Below are positions 4,060-12,440 of a stretch of DNA of 16,492 nt, in pieces. Made by a program: the position numbers and the translations under genes. Under the pieces are notes generated by a model, which was not told the DNA's origin, searched no databases, and was given only the letters and a program-made list of their open reading frames with translations. The DNA comes from Nitrospirae bacterium GWC2_42_7. GTDB taxonomy: Bacteria; Nitrospirota; Thermodesulfovibrionia; Thermodesulfovibrionales; UBA6898. The DNA is taken from the NCBI GenBank assembly GCA_001803645.1, contig MHDW01000158.1:1-16492 (forward strand), written 5' to 3'. Positions within the stretch are counted from its first letter, which is position 1. Each line of letters starts with the position of its first letter.

Positions 4060-4199
4060 GCTAATTCTGAATGTTAATTTCTCAGATACAGCTAAAATTT
4101 CTTGAAATCCTTGCATAGTAAAAGTTTTGTAATCTTTCTGCCTGTGTGTTTTAGATGCCTTCTGTATTTACGGGAGTTCTGTCTGCTAAAATATTTCAG

Positions 4200-6158
4200 G
4201 TGAAAAAGTACTATATTCATAAAGAAACTCCCAAACTCACTGTAGATTACAATAAAGACCTTAACCCTGACCAATACGCAGCTGTGATGCATCAGAACGG
4301 CCCGGCGCTCGTTCTTGCAGGAGCAGGCACAGGCAAAACAAGGGTTGTGACGTACAGAGTTTCGAGGCTTATCGAAAGTAATATCAGGGCAGAAAATATA
4401 TTGCTGCTGACCTTCACAAACAAGGCTGCAAAAGAGATGATGAGAAGAGTCGAGCTGCTGATAGGCAGAAACATCTCCGGTCTGTTCGGAGGGACATTCC
4501 ATCATGTCGCCAATCTGCTGCTCAGGCAGCATTATCTTCTTGCAGGTTACAGACAGGGCTTTTCAATTCTTGACAGGGAGGACTCAAAAGAGCTTTTTGA
4601 GGCCTGTATTTCCGATATCACCAAGAAAGAGACTGTCCTGCCAAAAGGCACTGTATTTGCAGAAATATGCAGTCTATCAAAAAATACCGGGGTCAGTATA
4701 TCAGATGTGATCCTCAGGAGGTTCCCTCATTTTGTCAGCGCTCTGGATAATATAGAAAAGATCGCAGCCCTTTATGAGAAAAAAAAGCTCCTGCTTAATC
4801 TCATGGATTTCGACGACCTTCTTCTCTGCTGGAAAAAGATCTTTGAGGAGAACGAAAAGATACGTGAATATTATTCTTTGAAGTTCAAATACATCCTTGT
4901 GGATGAATACCAGGACACAAACAGGCTTCAGGCAGATATTATTGACCTCTCAACAGGAGGAGAAAAGAACCTGATGGTTGTCGGCGATGATGCTCAGTCC
5001 ATTTATTCTTTCAGGGGTGCTGATTTCGAGAATATATTGAGATTTCCTGACAAACACAATGACACCGTCATATACAAACTCACTACAAACTACAGGTCAA
5101 CCCCTGAAATATTGAACTTAGCAAACAACATTATTTCTAATAATGTAAGGCAGTTCAGCAAGGAGCTGATTTCCGTCTCAGCACATGGTGAACTCCCCGG
5201 CATTGTTCCTTTAAATAACGTATTTGAACAGGCAGAATTCGTCTCTTCTGTGATAATGGATATGAACACTGACGGCCTGTCGTTTAATGAAATTGCTGTG
5301 CTTTACAGGTCGCATTACCAGTCAATGGAACTTCAGATGGAATTTCAACGAAGGGGCATACCCTTTGAAGTAAGGTCAGGCCTTAAATTCTTTGAACAGG
5401 CGCATATTAAGGATATCCTGTCATTCTTGAGGGTTGTTGTTAATCCTTACGATGAAATAAGCTGGAAAAGGATATTAAAGCTCATCCCCGGCATAGGCAA
5501 TATCACAGCAGGAAAGCTATGGAATTACATTCAATCCAAGACCGCACCACTTGATTCAATTTCAGAAGCTGGCAGGATAATTCCCAAAAAGGCCATGTCA
5601 GGATTCACTCTCCTTCTTGATATGCTGAAAGACCTGAGAGATGAAAAATACCTTTCCAGCCCTTCAGGCGCTGTTGATCATGTTTTAAGGCATGGTTATG
5701 AGGATTATCTCTACAGCCGTTATCCTAATGCCGAGATGCGCATCGAGGACATTGAACAGATGACAAAGTTTGCCTTGAAATATGATTCTCTCGAAATATT
5801 CCTGAATGACCTTACACTTCAGGGTGTAACAGACACTGAAACAGAAGAAGCTGAAGATTTTGACGGAAAGGTAATTTTATCTACAGTGCATCAGGCAAAG
5901 GGGCTTGAATGGGAAGCTGTATTTATAATAGGGCTGAATGACAACAAGTTCCCATCCATAAAATCGCTCAAGAACGGCGGTGAAGAAGAGGAAAGAAGAC
6001 TTTTTTATGTCGGGGCAACAAGGGCAAAAAAAATACTTTATCTCTGCTATACTGTTACGTCGGATGACTGGAGTATGATCGGATTCATAAGGCCTTCAAG
6101 GTTCATAAAAGAACTGCCAAAGGATTGTTTTGAGGAGATAATAGTAGAAGAGGTATAA
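4200..6158 (+). CDS. UvrD/Rep/PcrA-type superfamily 1 ATP-dependent DNA helicase
   Basis: Unwinds DNA 3' to 5' using ATP in repair or replication restart. All SF1A motifs are present (residues counted from the GTG at 4200): Q motif LNPDQ, Walker A AGAGTGKT (40-47), motif Ia TFTNKAAKEM (from 71), motif II DEYQDT (235-240), motif III GDDAQSIYSFRGAD (262-275), motif IV TNYRST, motif V VILSTVHQAKGLEW (558-571) and motif VI EEERRLFYVGATRAK (596-610). At 652 aa it is slightly shorter than UvrD/PcrA and ends soon after motif VI, with no obvious C-terminal Tudor-like tail. I prefer GTG 4200 because KKYYIHK...DYNKDLNPDQ matches the usual N-terminus of this subfamily; ATG 4155, directly after an in-frame TAG, would add 15 residues. 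Neither start has a strong ribosome-binding site. Which of UvrD, Rep or PcrA it replaces cannot be said. Confidence 0.93.
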   Translation: MKKYYIHKETPKLTVDYNKDLNPDQYAAVMHQNGPALVLAGAGTGKTRVVTYRVSRLIESNIRAENILLLTFTNKAAKEMMRRVELLIGRNISGLFGGTFHHVANLLLRQHYLLAGYRQGFSILDREDSKELFEACISDITKKETVLPKGTVFAEICSLSKNTGVSISDVILRRFPHFVSALDNIEKIAALYEKKKLLLNLMDFDDLLLCWKKIFEENEKIREYYSLKFKYILVDEYQDTNRLQADIIDLSTGGEKNLMVVGDDAQSIYSFRGADFENILRFPDKHNDTVIYKLTTNYRSTPEILNLANNIISNNVRQFSKELISVSAHGELPGIVPLNNVFEQAEFVSSVIMDMNTDGLSFNEIAVLYRSHYQSMELQMEFQRRGIPFEVRSGLKFFEQAHIKDILSFLRVVVNPYDEISWKRILKLIPGIGNITAGKLWNYIQSKTAPLDSISEAGRIIPKKAMSGFTLLLDMLKDLRDEKYLSSPSGAVDHVLRHGYEDYLYSRYPNAEMRIEDIEQMTKFALKYDSLEIFLNDLTLQGVTDTETEEAEDFDGKVILSTVHQAKGLEWEAVFIIGLNDNKFPSIKSLKNGGEEEERRLFYVGATRAKKILYLCYTVTSDDWSMIGFIRPSRFIKELPKDCFEEIIVEEV

Positions 6159-6167
6159 TATCAAAAG

Positions 6168-6218
6168 CAGAATCCAGTAGTCAGGACAAGGAATAAAAAC
6201 ATTTCATTCCGGATTCTG
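6168..6218. repeat. Imperfect inverted repeat between helicase and membrane-protein genes
   Basis: CAGAATCC (6168-6175) is inverted as GGATTCTG (6211-6218), with an inner pair GGAAT (6190-6194)/ATTCC (6206-6210). The following bases repeat ATTCTG-like units (to about 6232). This may be a decayed palindromic intergenic repeat; there is no T run, so it is not a clear terminator. Confidence 0.4.
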
Positions 6219-6243
6219 AATTCTGTATTCCTGAAAGGATAAA

Positions 6244-7326
6244 ATGACTTACTCCGAAACCATAAAAAACAGCTTCAATCTGATCAACAGGAACTGGCAG
6301 CTCGTTGCTATACAGTTCGGCATGATGGTGATAAACTTCCTTGGCTTCCTTATAATGATCGGTATCCCCCTCGGCATTGCTTTCATTATTTTCGGCCTTG
6401 ATCTGACAGGGCTTGCAGAGACAAAGGATATCGCGGGACTATTTAGCGACCCTGCTAATCTTCTTTCAAAATACTCAGGACTTATCATTATTGTTCTTTC
6501 CAGTTTTTTATTTTATATGGTCTTTGCCACGACCCTGTACTTATATGTCATGGGCGGTTCTGTCGGCGTCATTGGAAGAAGCATAATCGAACCTTCTTTC
6601 AGGTTCAGCATGAAGGGATTCTTTGCTGAAGCCAAAAAGATATTTTTTCCTCTGATGTGGTTTTCTCTTTTCATGGGATTGATCTTGATCGTTATAGTAT
6701 TAATCTTTACCGTTATTGCTTTTGTTCTCGGGCTGTTAGGCGGGGGCATAACTGCGATAGTGTCATTTGCAAAAAGCCAGGACTCAACACTTGCACTCTT
6801 TCTCGGTATCTTCTTTACTATGATACTTGCGCTTATCGGATTGATTATATTCTTTATAACACTTGCCATTACCACCTACGGCATGGCAGCGCTCTTTTTT
6901 AAGCGTGAAGGGGCGATCAAAGCCTTTACTTCTGCTGTAAGTTTCCTATGGAACAACCAGCCTTCATTCTGGCTTTATGTCCTGCTTTTTTCCGGATATA
7001 TTATCGCGAGTTTCTTTTTGATGCTGATAACATTTCCATTTAAACTTATCCCGATAATAGGAACTGTTGTATCTTTCCCCATGCAGATAATGTCGTATGT
7101 AGCCCAGAGCTATTTCGTACTAATAATATTCGCTGCTGTATTCGTCTTCTATTTCGATGCTGAAATTAAAAAACCGGAAGTTCTGTCACCGTCTACTGAT
7201 CCGGCTGCTTCTGAAGTACCTGAGTCCCCTGCTGATATGAATATGCAATTGGATGATATTTCTGAAGTTCAAGCTCCTCAGCAAGAAGAGACTCTTCAAG
7301 AGAAGGATGCGAAAGGACAAGGCTGA
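6244..7326 (+). CDS. Polytopic membrane protein with acidic, proline-rich tail, function unknown
   Basis: 360 aa with about six hydrophobic segments: residues roughly 20-50, 78-110, 133-165, 183-215, 240-268 and 280-304, separated by short loops. Residues after about 305 form a soluble, low-complexity tail rich in E, P, S and Q. The start MTYSETIKNSFNLINRNWQLVAIQ, an amphipathic helix ahead of the first membrane segment, is typical of a widespread family of uncharacterised inner-membrane proteins. There are no catalytic or transporter signatures I recognise. ATG 6244 has AAGGA at 6235-6239. It lies 85 bases after the helicase gene on the same strand and may be read through from it. Its last 134 bases overlap the 3' end of the convergent LipM-like gene; the overlap codes only the variable tail. 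Confidence 0.85.
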   Translation: MTYSETIKNSFNLINRNWQLVAIQFGMMVINFLGFLIMIGIPLGIAFIIFGLDLTGLAETKDIAGLFSDPANLLSKYSGLIIIVLSSFLFYMVFATTLYLYVMGGSVGVIGRSIIEPSFRFSMKGFFAEAKKIFFPLMWFSLFMGLILIVIVLIFTVIAFVLGLLGGGITAIVSFAKSQDSTLALFLGIFFTMILALIGLIIFFITLAITTYGMAALFFKREGAIKAFTSAVSFLWNNQPSFWLYVLLFSGYIIASFFLMLITFPFKLIPIIGTVVSFPMQIMSYVAQSYFVLIIFAAVFVFYFDAEIKKPEVLSPSTDPAASEVPESPADMNMQLDDISEVQAPQQEETLQEKDAKGQG

Positions 7327-8020
7327 CCCCGAAGGTTTCTTTAAAAGATTCAGAGATGTTTTCCTTGAAATCATCCTCATTAATGTCAGGCAATAATTCT
7401 TTTAACCCTGTCATATAATTACTTGCCGGAGATGTTCTCTCCTCTCCGAATATATTCCGCAATAGATCTTCGTTGTACAAAAATGGAATGCAGCCCTGCT
7501 GAAGCAGTCCGTTAACCCAGCGTTTCTGGGCAGAACCGACTATCTTTTTGTTCTGTATCATAATTTCCCCAAATGAACTTGAATTGAAGCAGACGGGGCT
7601 TTTCGCAAGGATCCGTCCCTTTTCCCTCTTCTCCTTTGATACTGCCTGAATACCGGTATTTTCGAACGCAAGGATAAAGGCCTTGCTTATTTTTTCATAA
7701 CTATCGAAAAGTCCTTTTGAAAAAAGCCCCTTATCAGTCCTGACAGAGAAACTGTAAGTTAATTCTTTGTCATGCAGTATGGCTCTCCCACCCGTAGGTC
7801 TTCTGACGATCGGTATTTTATTGGTTTCGCAATAACTGATGTTGATTTCAGATGTCTTCTGGAAATGTCCAAGGCTGAGTGAAGGTTTGTCCCAGCCATA
7901 CAACCTTAGGGTCGGAGGTGAAAAGCCTTTTCTTACACAGGATGCAATAGCTTCATCAAGTGCCATATTAAAAGAAGCACTGCAATTTCCTGAATCGATC
8001 AGCCGCCATGTCTTTTCCAT
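7193..8020 (-). CDS. Lipoate/octanoate acyltransferase, LipM-like (LplA/LipB family)
   Basis: 275 aa, the size of LipM. Family motifs: LRLYGWDKPSLSLGHFQ (residues 38-54), IVRRPTGGRAILHDKELTYS (71-90), then KSPVCFNSSSFGEI (140-152) and KKIVGSAQKRW (158-168), followed by LLQQGCIPF. The GGRAxLHDxELTYS form and the Cys in the CF motif (C144) match octanoyltransferases of the LipM type, where that cysteine forms the acyl-enzyme, better than ATP-using LplA. The expected role is moving octanoate from acyl carrier protein to the lipoyl domain of GcvH or 2-oxoacid dehydrogenases; a lipoate ligase is the alternative. ATG 8020 is the first start after an in-frame stop; no clear Shine-Dalgarno. Its 3' end overlaps the convergent membrane-protein gene. 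It lies 86 bases after the globin-sensor gene. Confidence 0.85.
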   Translation of the reverse strand: MEKTWRLIDSGNCSASFNMALDEAIASCVRKGFSPPTLRLYGWDKPSLSLGHFQKTSEINISYCETNKIPIVRRPTGGRAILHDKELTYSFSVRTDKGLFSKGLFDSYEKISKAFILAFENTGIQAVSKEKREKGRILAKSPVCFNSSSFGEIMIQNKKIVGSAQKRWVNGLLQQGCIPFLYNEDLLRNIFGEERTSPASNYMTGLKELLPDINEDDFKENISESFKETFGVSLVLSHPSLEESLLAEELELQKYHPIAYSYQQGTQVLQKQPDQ

Positions 8021-8106: not shown

Positions 8107-9252
8107 TCAGTCTGCAGATGGAAGTATTATAACCGCCTTTGTCCCCTGCCCGGGGACAGGACTGATAGAAAGTTTTGAATAGTTCTTCATGGCCGCAAGC
8201 CTTGCTATTGGAAGCCCAAAACCTGTTCCTTCCTGTTTTGTTGAAAAAAATGGAGAATAAATCTTCTCCGAATCTTCATCTCTCAATGGGATGCCGGTGT
8301 TAAATATTTCGATCCTTACTCTTCCTGGAAGAAAAGGGTCTGAACTCGATGTTATCCTTATATAAGGGTCATCAGTGCCCACAGCCTCAAAGCTGTTTTC
8401 AAGCATATAATAAAACATACTTTCTATATCCTTGATATCAACAAGTATATTAGCTGCTTTTTTATCAAGATCAATCTCTACTTTAATTGCGCTAAATCCT
8501 GCTCGGGATTTAAGAAGCCCGACAACTTTTTCTATAATCACTTCGAGCGATGTCACGGTTAGTTCAGGTTCCTTCTGGGATATATCTGCAAAAATGCTTA
8601 TGTCCTTTATCATCTTTTCGCATGCGGAACTGTCGGTAAGGACTGATTCGTAAACATCATAAAGGGGATCTCCAATGCCGGCTTTCCTCTGGAGCCTCTT
8701 TATATTTCCCCCTATAACCACGATCTTATTTCTTATCCTGTCAGCAACTCCTCTGATTATGTTCATATCGCATCTTGCGTGTGCTGAAATATATGCATCC
8801 GTTTCCACAAGGATACAGAAGTCAAACAACCTGTTAACTGCCGCTGAAACAACGCCCTGCTTTTCTGAAGGTATCTCACTGAAGATTATCTGCTCGCAAA
8901 ACTGTCGCGAAATGGAGAAACCGAGATTTGAATATCTCTGGTCAAGGTTTATCTCAACATGCCTGATGCCTATTCTCCAAAGGTATTCCATGAAATCTTC
9001 CCCTGAATTCCATTTAAACAGGGATTCAAACCAGCCTGCCCATGCCTTTTTAAGCGAACCCGGGGTCTCGTAATGTTTCAAATACATGCTCGTCTCTGGG
9101 ATATCAAGGAAGAAATCATAAAGATAAACCGAAAAATCTTCTTTCCTTTTTATGAATATATTTCTATATGGGGCAAGAGCTGCAAACTCTTTTTCGCCAA
9201 GCCCGATCTTTTCCTTAAAAAGAAGCAGTTTTTGATATGGAACAGGGACCAC
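8107..9252 (-). CDS. Globin-coupled sensor histidine-kinase-like protein lacking the phospho-acceptor His
   Basis: 381 aa. Residues about 15-150 are a protoglobin/globin-coupled sensor: Y45 (LYDFFLDIPET) fits the distal B10 tyrosine, W71/W74 (KAWAGWFESLF) lie in the conserved helix, and H98 (RIGIRHVEINLDQRYSNLGF) is the expected heme-proximal histidine. O2, NO or redox sensing is therefore likely. Residues 160-225 align with a dimerisation helix, but the usual AHEIRNPL box reads ADRIRNKI: D171 replaces the phospho-acceptor His. The ATPase domain follows with N286 in the N-box (MLENSFEAV), a variant G1 box (FNTGIP, normally DxGxG) and an intact G2 box (EGTGFGLPIA, 341-350). GTG start with GAGGAG six bases upstream. 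It sits between the CooT-like and LipM-like genes. Domain calls are strong; whether it can transfer phosphate is doubtful. Confidence 0.9.
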   Translation of the reverse strand: MVPVPYQKLLLFKEKIGLGEKEFAALAPYRNIFIKRKEDFSVYLYDFFLDIPETSMYLKHYETPGSLKKAWAGWFESLFKWNSGEDFMEYLWRIGIRHVEINLDQRYSNLGFSISRQFCEQIIFSEIPSEKQGVVSAAVNRLFDFCILVETDAYISAHARCDMNIIRGVADRIRNKIVVIGGNIKRLQRKAGIGDPLYDVYESVLTDSSACEKMIKDISIFADISQKEPELTVTSLEVIIEKVVGLLKSRAGFSAIKVEIDLDKKAANILVDIKDIESMFYYMLENSFEAVGTDDPYIRITSSSDPFLPGRVRIEIFNTGIPLRDEDSEKIYSPFFSTKQEGTGFGLPIARLAAMKNYSKLSISPVPGQGTKAVIILPSAD

Positions 9253-10017: not shown

Positions 10018-11049
10018 ATGATTTCGCTCGATTCGATCATAAACAGCCTTGAAGAAACTATTATACTTTTTGATAGAAGCCTGAAGATAACCTATTTAAA
10101 TAAAACAGGTGAAGAGCTTTTTCAGAAAAGCACAAAGGACATCCTCGGGAAGAAACTGCCGGAGATAATCAAGGATACGGATCCAATCTCCCCTTTGATC
10201 GATAAAGTGATAGCCGAAGGAAGATCTTTCAGGGTAAAGTCAGCGACCTTAAACACAGGGCAGGGTATCAATATTGATTTCAATCTGTCGCCATTTTTTA
10301 TAAACAGCAAAATAGAAGGCGCTGTCCTGTCAATATCCAAAAATATTAATCTTATTGAAAGAGAAGACTACAGTTTTGACTCGATCGATTATCTCATCGG
10401 CTCCATTGCTCATGAAATAAAAAACCCTCTTGGTGGTATAAAAGGCGCTGCTCAGTTGCTGCGCAATAACACGCAAGGTGCGTGTATTGACGACTGTGTT
10501 GACCTTATCATTAAGGAAACTGACAGGCTGAATTTGATCCTTCAGGATTATTTGACTGCATGTAAGAAACCTACACTTAATGCTCTGAACATACATGAAG
10601 TTATGGAAAAAACACTGACCATTATGAATATAACAATAAAAAAAGCAGGAATTTCATTAAAAAGGGTGTACGATCCCAGCCTGCCTCAAATCAGGGGAGA
10701 TGAGGGAAAACTCCTGCAAGTCTTCTTAAACATTGTAAAAAACGCCGTTGAATCTATGAAAAAAGGCGGAAGACTTGAAATATCTACTCATCCTTCGGAT
10801 GAATTATTCAAAGAAAATGATAAGATCAAGCGGATGGCGCTTATTTCTATCAAAGATACAGGCAAAGGCATTGCTGAAGATGACTTAAAAAAGATCTTTC
10901 TGCCATTTTATACAAAAAAGAAATACGGCTCTGGCATAGGTCTTGCTCTCTCAAATAAGATCTTAAGAGACCACAAGGGCTTCATAAAGGTTAAAAGCCA
11001 GAAAAATAAGGGCACCTGCTTTTATATTTATCTGCCTTTCGAGAAATAA
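10018..11049 (+). CDS. ntrB: Nitrogen-regulation-type sensor histidine kinase NtrB (PAS-HisKA-HATPase)
   Basis: 343 aa, cytoplasmic, close to the usual NtrB length. Residues 1-110 are a PAS domain (LEETIILFDRSLKITYLN...GEELF). The H-box SIAHEIKNPLGGIKGAAQLL (H132) is nearly identical to the NtrB signature. The ATPase has N242 (NIVKNAVESM), G1 DTGKGI (280-285), the F-box FLPFYTKK and G2 GSGIGLALS (304-312). It should phosphorylate, and under nitrogen sufficiency dephosphorylate, the NtrC encoded next. Stop TAA and the ntrC ATG overlap by one base (TAATG), indicating coupling. No glnA, glnB or amt gene is in the window, so the nitrogen role rests on sequence resemblance. No Shine-Dalgarno precedes ATG 10018, but an in-frame stop at 9979 limits upstream choices. 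Confidence 0.88.
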   Translation: MISLDSIINSLEETIILFDRSLKITYLNKTGEELFQKSTKDILGKKLPEIIKDTDPISPLIDKVIAEGRSFRVKSATLNTGQGINIDFNLSPFFINSKIEGAVLSISKNINLIEREDYSFDSIDYLIGSIAHEIKNPLGGIKGAAQLLRNNTQGACIDDCVDLIIKETDRLNLILQDYLTACKKPTLNALNIHEVMEKTLTIMNITIKKAGISLKRVYDPSLPQIRGDEGKLLQVFLNIVKNAVESMKKGGRLEISTHPSDELFKENDKIKRMALISIKDTGKGIAEDDLKKIFLPFYTKKKYGSGIGLALSNKILRDHKGFIKVKSQKNKGTCFYIYLPFEK

Positions 11050-12440
11050 TGGACAAACGAATATTAATAATTGACGACGATGAAAGTATAATCTGGGTTA
11101 TCAAGAAAGCACTTGAGCCCTTTGGTTACAGCATTATATCAAGGACAAAACTCGCTTCAGGATTAAGAGCGGTGCAGGATAACCCTAACGTAATTCTTCT
11201 TGACCTTGTTCTTCCTGACGGGGACGGGCTTGAAGGCCTAAGAGAAATCCGCTCTTTAAATCCTGATGCTATTGTTATCATGGTCACAGCCCACGCAAAG
11301 ATGCAGAGCACGATAACAGCTATGAAAGAAGGTGCCTACGACTATCTCGAAAAACCCTTTGATATTGAAGAACTGAAAATAGTTGTTGAGAAGGCCTTCA
11401 GAGATCTCTCTTTAAGAGAAGAATTAAAGCAGCTCAAGAAAGCTTCTTTAGAAACTGAATCTCCCCAGATGCTCGGGAAAAGCCCTGGAATGTTAAAAGT
11501 ATTCAAGGATATCGGCAGGGCTGCTCCAAAAGACATCACTGTTTTGATAACAGGCGAAAGCGGCACAGGAAAAGAACTTGTGGCAAAGGCTATTCATTAT
11601 AACAGTAAGCGCTCGCTAGGTCCGTTTGTTGCAATAAATTCAGCATCTCTGCCTAAAGAACTGCTTGAGTCAGAACTGTTCGGTTATAAGAAAGGGGCTT
11701 TTACCGGAGCTTTAAAGGAAAAAGCAGGCAAGATAGAAACAGCCAACAGCGGGACTTTATTCCTTGATGAGATCTCGGAAATGGACTCAGGCCTTCAGGC
11801 AAAAATACTACGCTTCATTCAGGAGAATGAATTCACCCCACTGGGCAGCAATGAAATAGTTAAAGCAAATGTTAGAATTATAGGCGCTACCAACAAGAAC
11901 CTCTCCGAAGCCGTATCAAACGGCAGTTTCAGGGAAGACCTGTACTACAGGTTCAATGTTGTTCAGATAAAAATACCGCCTCTCAGGGAAAGGCAAGAAG
12001 ACATTCCCCTGCTCATAAAACATTTTCTGAGGGAAACATCTGAAAAACTTGAAACAGGAGAAAAAGCACTCTCCAAAGATGCAAGAGCTCTGCTCCTAAA
12101 ATATGACTGGCCCGGCAATGTACGCGAACTCGAAAATGTAATAAAAAGAGCATGCGTTCTTTCAACAGGATCTGTTATCGAAAAGAAAGACCTTCTGCTC
12201 GAAGAAGATAGTTCATATACTGTAAAGGATTTCCTGGAAGAAAAACTGAAACGTTATCTGAAAGACATGACAAAGGTGTCGAATTTCAATCTTTACGACG
12301 CAGTGCTCTCAGAAGTTGAAAAAGCCCTTATCTCTATAGTCCACAGGGAAACAAACAACAACCAGCTTAAAACAGCAAAGGTGCTCGGTATAAACCGTAA
12401 TACTCTGAGGTCTAAAATCAATAAATATAAAATAAAATAG
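11049..12440 (+). CDS. ntrC: Sigma-54-dependent response regulator NtrC (REC-AAA+-Fis)
   Basis: 463 aa, very close to NtrC length. Receiver 1-118: D10/D11, phospho-site D52 (VILLDLVLPDGDG), T80 and K102 (YLEKPF). AAA+ domain about 140-375: Walker A GESGTGKE (169-176), the sigma-54-contacting loop GAFTGA (216-221), Walker B GTLFLDEIS (235-243), sensor I GATNKNL and PLRERQEDIPLL, and arginine-finger region WPGNVREL. The C-terminal Fis-type helix-turn-helix is NNQLKTAKVLGINRNTLRSK, ending at residue 463. It activates sigma-54 promoters after phosphorylation by its partner kinase. Translationally coupled to ntrB. I found no clear -24/-12 element in the window that would mark a local target. Confidence 0.92.
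   Translation: MDKRILIIDDDESIIWVIKKALEPFGYSIISRTKLASGLRAVQDNPNVILLDLVLPDGDGLEGLREIRSLNPDAIVIMVTAHAKMQSTITAMKEGAYDYLEKPFDIEELKIVVEKAFRDLSLREELKQLKKASLETESPQMLGKSPGMLKVFKDIGRAAPKDITVLITGESGTGKELVAKAIHYNSKRSLGPFVAINSASLPKELLESELFGYKKGAFTGALKEKAGKIETANSGTLFLDEISEMDSGLQAKILRFIQENEFTPLGSNEIVKANVRIIGATNKNLSEAVSNGSFREDLYYRFNVVQIKIPPLRERQEDIPLLIKHFLRETSEKLETGEKALSKDARALLLKYDWPGNVRELENVIKRACVLSTGSVIEKKDLLLEEDSSYTVKDFLEEKLKRYLKDMTKVSNFNLYDAVLSEVEKALISIVHRETNNNQLKTAKVLGINRNTLRSKINKYKIK

Follow-up and report, generated by a model that had tools for sequence, protein, structure and literature searches.

An aspartate in place of the phospho-acceptor histidine in a clade of globin-coupled pseudokinases

What does a heme-controlled histidine kinase do when the histidine that should receive the phosphate is an aspartate? 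This question is raised by a gene on contig MHDW01000158.1 of Nitrospirae bacterium GWC2_42_7 (phylum Nitrospirota; assembly GCA_001803645.1). The window, that is, the whole stretch of DNA analyzed here, comprises 16,492 nucleotides, and its open reading frame (ORF) 8107-9252 on the reverse strand encodes a protein with the domain order protoglobin, dimerization and histidine phosphotransfer (DHp) hairpin, and HATPase_c. The H-box of this protein, GVADRIRNKIVVIGG, has Asp171 (codon GAC) where kinases carry His; the aligned H-box of ThkA, taken from a phmmer alignment, is ARVAHEIRNPITIIGG. A first-pass annotation of the window had proposed that Asp replaces the phospho-acceptor His in a globin-coupled kinase, and this was borne out by the family alignments. 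It was too narrow in one respect, as the departures go beyond the His itself: the acid at the following position (His+1) is replaced by Arg and the Pro at His+5 by Lys. Our analysis places the gene in an old group of globin-coupled orphan pseudokinases with Asp fixed at the acceptor position, in which His98, the DHp hairpin, the ATP site, and Asn175 are kept in the sampled members. From its sequence, the protein is predicted to be a gas-sensing heme globin in the shape of a histidine kinase.

Homologs were collected in three protein searches, with the window protein, the His-type cluster P0082, and the Asp-type cluster P0109 as queries. These searches, which admit chains no more than 1.75 times as long as the query, list the best 120 each of 340, 409, and 573 matches, and all 320 distinct clusters obtained (the window's own included) were aligned, fragments included. 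The acceptor position was Asp in 206 of the listed clusters, His in 114, and no other residue in any; the ratio of the two types reflects the chosen queries, because only the best 120 matches per search were listed. The best 64 matches of the window protein all have Asp. A contig scan with the single protein found no loci, and a scan with alignment A1, built from Asp-type rows only, found 31 named loci, some of which coincide with genes of the listed clusters. The acceptor residue is Asp in 23 of these loci and His in eight. Thus, D171, which the first-pass annotation had proposed to check in homologs, proved to be widely conserved, and the situation that it had considered damaging, with His in all close relatives, is not what the best matches and named loci display.

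Most titles of the named loci refer to metagenome bins. The Asp loci comprise all those titled Nitrospirota together with L034 (Syntrophus), L039 (Syntrophobacterales), and L040 (Syntrophorhabdaceae), and the eight His loci are titled Desulfonatronum, Desulfonatronospira, Desulfonatronovibrio, Desulfovibrio, and Syntrophobacteraceae. In 395 evenly drawn genomes of the phylum of the window, a match at E <= 1e-60 was present in 22, and a search of 61 genomes of relatives gave a match at E <= 1e-20 in 16 (own genome included in both counts); the match in G034 is probably an ordinary kinase, because it covers only residues 165-380 (74.9 bits). As far as draft genomes tell, the distribution of the gene is patchy. 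One genome (G194) has two Asp-type copies (L091 and L092). In another (G057, contig C21), the reading frame of the relative L093 (8392-9000 and 7821-8336) is broken between DHp helix 1 and the ATPase part, which reflects either a pseudogene or an assembly error.

Among 205 Asp-type rows longer than 330 amino acids, with a median pairwise identity of 0.47 (random 2000 pairs), 20 columns are invariant: W71, W74, G95, H98, V99, F112, R116, E150, T151, A153, C161, D171, R174, N175, I180, D217, N286, F335, G342, and G344. None of these rows has Glu, Asn, or Gln at position 171. The sole invariant His is H98, and a family-wide substitute acceptor His is not apparent, since besides H98 only column 120 has His in at least half of the rows (109/205). 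H158, named in the first-pass annotation as a possible alternative acceptor, was rejected, as it is His in 14 of the 206 Asp-group clusters. A separate observation concerns C161 (codon 8770-8772, reverse strand), which lies shortly before the H-box and is Cys in 206/206 Asp-group and 113/114 His-type clusters; a role as a redox or thiol switch is possible.

Domain assignments are consistent with a sensor globin joined to a kinase core. The N-terminal Protoglobin match reached 46.7 bits (PF11563, cut-off 25), and no match to Pfam HisKA (PF00512) was obtained for the window protein at E <= 0.1. With respect to the PF00512 cut-off, the Asp-type cluster P0047 fell below and the His-type P0082 above, and precomputed PF00512 assignments exist for a few other Asp-type clusters, such as P0046, P0074, and P0091. 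An AlphaFold2 model computed from an 83-row alignment (mean pLDDT 92.2, pTM 0.79) has an unbroken helix 129-190 linking the globin to DHp helix 1, followed by DHp helix 2 (196-226). Over its C-terminal part, the model matched ZraS, HK853, DivL, and other kinase cores, so that the predicted fold is that of a kinase core of DHp and catalytic ATP-binding (CA) domains. Over the N-terminal part, it matched the globins of GsGCS and AfGcHK (globin folds 2w31 and 5ohe), and from this fold match His98 would be equivalent to AfGcHK His99. No solved chain spanning both globin and kinase core was among the 50 listed structure matches. The source draft genome (2.58 Mb, 71% complete) has one protoglobin match; the protein gave 33 hits in it at E <= 0.001, none of which, apart from the protein itself, exceeded 56.4 bits.

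When and how often did the Asp arise? For 98 representatives (58 Asp, 40 His), picked by identity cut-offs, a maximum-likelihood tree was computed with residues 163-183 excluded. A single branch (SH-aLRT 100, quick method) separates the two types, corresponding to one change between His and Asp. In an outgroup tree of the DHp-CA part (53 rows, including 13 outgroup kinases), the Asp rows form one group with a support of 95, nested in the His-bearing family. The His rows do not lie on one side of a branch in this tree, though no starred branch forces that, and 33 of its 50 inner branches are weak. Given the single change on the larger tree and the nesting by outgroup, a single, derived origin is the best reading of the Asp. 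The acceptor codons are CAC or CAT in the eight His loci and GAC or GAT in 24 Asp genes (window included), and the exchange therefore fits a single-base step. GAC outnumbers GAT 22 to 2 at D171, compared with 302:225 for all Asp codons of the same 24 genes; as other conserved Asp positions vary widely, from 18:6 (residues 104 and 217) to 7:17 (residue 162), and the rows are not independent, no inference is drawn from this skew. Compared with L025, the nearest named relative (73% identical), dN/dS was about 0.10 by NG86 (0.167/1.725) and about 0.13 by YN00 (0.172/1.277), values that are only rough because dS exceeds 1. These ratios argue for purifying selection on the gene and, with H98 and the ATP site invariant, uphold the view of the first-pass annotation that selection keeps the heme-sensing, nucleotide-binding fold without the acceptor His.

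The Asp is accompanied by further changes in the kinase core. Gln occupies His+1 in all 114 listed His-type clusters, and the 206 Asp-group clusters have Arg (172), Lys (26), Ala (5), Thr (2), or Met (1) there. In a comparison of matched diversity (45 Asp versus 40 His rows, mean identity 0.47 each), His+1 was relaxed in the Asp group, and His+5 was Pro in 40/40 His rows versus Pro in 28, Lys in 9, and Arg in 8 Asp rows. On DHp helix 2, position 207 is Glu in 40/40 His rows, compared with Glu in 27, Gln in 10, and Asp in 6 of the 45 Asp rows, and position 210 is Arg in 40/40 versus 19/45. The ATP-site residues are conserved in both groups, with a somewhat more variable N-box stretch in the Asp group (mean entropy 1.15 versus 0.78). 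Helix-1 docking positions, picked from known kinase-receiver structures, are conserved in the Asp group, less strictly than in the His group (0.62 versus 0.32). Judged from the alignments, positions serving kinase action thus appear to have loosened more than the heme position, the Asp, the Asn, and the core ATP site.

The surroundings of the gene were searched for operon partners at 32 loci (the window and the 31 named loci) and then at eight more, giving 40 neighborhoods with limited flanks. ORF calling was crude: three of the 32 loci (L032, L052, and L054) were not grouped with the cluster of the family itself, the pseudokinase in L090 went unlabeled, and the lipoate ligase gene of the window was discarded because of overlap. 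A six-frame check compared 11 window genes with the 39 other loci. No gene was consistently linked to the pseudokinase across the 40 neighborhoods, the commonest neighbor cluster occurring in 6 of the 32 loci. Receiver domains were detected in eight neighborhoods, seven among the called ORFs (phmmer, three seeds) and that of L093 by tblastn; within these flanks and with these seeds, no receiver was a consistent neighbor, and partners may be encoded elsewhere. The coordinates of the window features are collected in Table 1.

Table 1. Features of the pseudokinase gene and its neighbors in the window
Feature	Position	Strand	Evidence or remark
Globin-coupled pseudokinase ORF, 381 amino acids, GTG start	8107..9252	-	ORF list, Pfam domains, dN/dS about 0.10-0.13 versus L025
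Protoglobin domain, residues 12-157	8782..9219	-	Pfam PF11563; model matches 2w31, 5ohe
His98 codon, proximal heme-ligand position	8959..8961	-	His in 206/206 Asp-group and 114/114 His-group clusters
Tyr45 codon, distal heme-pocket position	9118..9120	-	Asp-group clusters: Tyr 162/206, His 30/206
DHp helical hairpin, residues 158-226	8575..8781	-	AlphaFold2 helices 129-190 and 196-226; alignment to kinase DHp domains
Altered H-box, residues 168-182, GVADRIRNKIVVIGG	8707..8751	-	Sequence and family alignments
Asp171 codon GAC at phospho-acceptor His position	8740..8742	-	320 listed clusters: Asp 206, His 114, other 0
Asn175 codon (His+4; phosphatase position in HisKA kinases)	8728..8730	-	Asn in 320/320 listed clusters; role as described in PMC3510030
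HATPase_c domain, residues 272-379, N/G1/F/G2 boxes	8116..8439	-	Pfam PF02518; N286, F335, G342, G344 invariant in 205 long Asp rows
CooT-family gene, 62 amino acids	9366-9554	-	PF10133, 76.7 bits; CO dehydrogenase accessory; directly upstream, same strand
Lipoate-ligase-type gene	7193-8020	-	Downstream of pseudokinase
NtrB/NtrC-type pair	10018-12440	+	Divergent from pseudokinase
Block of UvrD-type helicase, 360-amino-acid membrane-type protein, and lipoate ligase	4155-8020		Also in L027, L028

The six-frame check revealed no CooT gene at the 39 other loci, so that any link to CO would be particular to the source genome. An NtrB/NtrC-like pair occurs elsewhere only in L040, at a distance of 5 kb. 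The block of helicase, 360-amino-acid protein, and lipoate ligase genes lies 1.4-3.7 kb from the pseudokinase in L027 and L028 (the helicase gene also occurs in L053), with the relative orientation of the pseudokinase reversed in both, and the pseudokinases of the three block-bearing loci are only about 48-49% identical. The block is a stretch of chromosome common to these three loci rather than an operon. At L030, L036, L038, and L045, genes for a PAS-GAF kinase with an H-box His and for a protein of about 155 amino acids lie upstream on the same strand as the pseudokinase. The copies at L030 were run against Pfam, and the small protein (7464-7928) had no match. Its relatives, found beside or near the pseudokinase in L036, L037, L038, L045, and L090, belong to one subclade.

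How might such a protein act? The most likely reading of its sequence is an orphan pseudokinase that is gated by heme and acts on a receiver domain, and that probably reads or removes the phosphate of its partner rather than passing it on. Our best guess, which we offer tentatively, is a predicted heme-gated one-way receiver phosphatase acting via a D-x-x-x-N motif. Binding of a gas to the heme, or a change in heme redox state, would act jointly with ATP or ADP in the HATPase domain to set the shape of the DHp hairpin, and the hairpin would dock a phosphorylated receiver encoded elsewhere and strip its phosphate. Asn175 would position a water molecule, with Asp171, one helical turn earlier, as its acidic partner; such a D-x-x-x-N pair would be spaced like the D-x-x-x-Q pair in NarX, whose phosphatase activity requires DxxxQ (PMC3510030). 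The product would be a heme-gated one-way phosphatase unable to donate phosphate. We prefer this proposal because the two residues that the Asp clade has lost are precisely the kinase pair, and the phosphatase residue Asn remains. In CrdS, the acid at His+1 is needed for the kinase only and the Asn at His+4 for the phosphatase only (PMC3510030): E372A lost kinase and kept phosphatase activity, N375A lost phosphatase activity, and H371A kept it, with a CrdA~P half-life of 2.6 min versus 53.5 min alone and 0.7 min with the wild type. As CrdS E372Q is kinase-dead (PMC3510030) and Gln is universal at His+1 in the listed His-type clusters, these sisters (e.g., P0082) may themselves be poor kinases, in which case kinase loss began before the Asp. 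That Asp171 takes part directly in the chemistry, by accepting the gamma-phosphate of ATP (an aspartyl autokinase gated by heme) or by serving as the acid in a new D-x-x-x-N phosphatase center at the former His site, either one a one-step conversion, is possible though doubtful.

Several points weigh against the phosphatase proposal. In PleC, removal of the His eliminated phosphatase activity as well. N175 is equally kept in the His-bearing sisters, and its retention may therefore be merely inherited and not phosphatase-specific. In NarX, the acid is at His+1, so that the register is shifted by one residue relative to Asp171. DivL is a pseudo-histidine kinase that has neither kinase nor phosphatase activity and that binds and stabilizes DivK~P (PMC4211667). 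The partner may not be constant, since His+7 and His+11 are Met and Trp instead of the common Thr and Gly in 44 of the 205 long Asp rows, and none of the receivers in the sampled flanks is consistently linked to the gene.

The main rival, which we take seriously while holding it to be improbable, is a DivL-like reader or adaptor, the fold of which would bind another kinase or a phosphorylated receiver and relay a conformational signal without chemistry, the heme setting the affinity. The four operon-like loci with an upstream kinase would suit such an adaptor; however, they are mutually close relatives, and the remaining 27 named loci lack their arrangement. Furthermore, a DivL ortholog has Ala at the acceptor position, whereas the Asp is never replaced within the clade described here. 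Strict conservation of the Asp would fit a required negative charge and thus a locked phosphomimic, in which the carboxylate mimics phospho-His, holds the DHp domain in a phosphotransfer-like state, and allows the protein, controlled by its heme, to titrate a regulator that is not phosphorylated. DesK H188E was used in this manner and crystallized as a phosphotransferase complex (PMC5231405), but Glu, the residue used in DesK, occurs in none of the 205 rows, and the Arg or Lys adjoining the Asp in 198/206 clusters would partly offset the charge, which makes this explanation unlikely.

An invariant Asp at the acceptor position next to a conserved ATP site could also mean that Asp171 is itself the phospho-acceptor, with carboxylate autophosphorylation giving an acyl phosphate that is then passed on or hydrolyzed. 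We know of no precedent for an Asp at the His site as an autophosphorylation acceptor. Asp has a shorter side chain than His, and the acid at His+1, required for autophosphorylation in CrdS and HK853, is Arg or Lys in those same 198 clusters, so that we regard an acceptor role as very improbable. Somewhat less remote, and still quite unlikely, is an output outside two-component signaling, with the kinase core merely relaying the heme signal to another effector. The absence of a linked regulator would agree with it, as would the HAD hydrolase fused ahead of the globin in a single 587-amino-acid chain in clusters P0050, P0051, and P0058 (Pfam run on P0050 and P0058). Such fusions are seen in three clusters, with the scan covering part of the 320 and chains within the length limit of the searches, and the receiver-docking helix stays conserved. 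A local mutation, sequencing error, or decaying gene, to which the one interrupted relative in G057 might point, is rejected on account of the Asp in so many listed clusters and named loci and the low dN/dS; we give it next to no credence.

Globin-coupled histidine kinases with an active His, such as AfGcHK and NmpU, and pseudo-histidine kinases, such as DivL, are already known, and an Asp-type globin kinase was not described in the titles and abstract openings of the open-access literature searched. Both globin-coupled enzymes autophosphorylate, AfGcHK (Anaeromyxobacter) at His183, and hand the phosphate to receivers, which for NmpU (Myxococcus xanthus) are NmpT and NmpS (PMC8697598, PMC6211767, and PMC11841059). 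Compared with their published descriptions, the present protein differs in its acceptor Asp and in having no consistently linked receiver; of the features of this kinase type, the N/G1/F/G2 boxes of HATPase_c are present and the DHp acceptor His is absent. Replacement of the acceptor His throughout a clade with retention of the fold is a trait shared with pseudo-histidine kinases of the DivL kind. However, DivL of Caulobacter has Tyr (Ala in one species) rather than Asp, PAS sensors rather than a globin, and a role in the cell cycle. The H-box frame with Ile or Val at His+2 and Asn at His+4 resembles that of CrdS, HK853, and NtrB (HisKA), which, unlike the Asp clade with its Asp and mostly Arg or Lys, have the His and the acid at His+1. 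NarX (HisKA_3) is similar in having an acid and an amide at a distance of four residues in the DHp helix (PMC3510030), a likeness that does not imply family membership; in NarX the acid stands beside an intact His, whereas in the Asp clade it takes the place of the His and Asn is the amide. The pseudokinase version of ChrS from Corynebacterium glutamicum likewise is a heme-responsive histidine kinase in pseudokinase form, but it appears to be a variant of one kinase (PMC9491836).

Many of the source entries carry the name signal transduction histidine kinase, which would mislead on mechanism. The pseudo-histidine kinases compared here are single cases like DivL, whereas the Asp type is a whole clade (206 sampled clusters, from Nitrospirota and Desulfobacterota bins) in which a single specific replacement is conserved with the same strictness as the heme-ligand position, next to a sister group with the His retained. 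The Asp clade and its His sister thus form a matched pair bearing on the role of the histidine kinase fold after the loss of phosphotransfer, and on how heme sensing is wired into this fold in poorly cultured bacteria.
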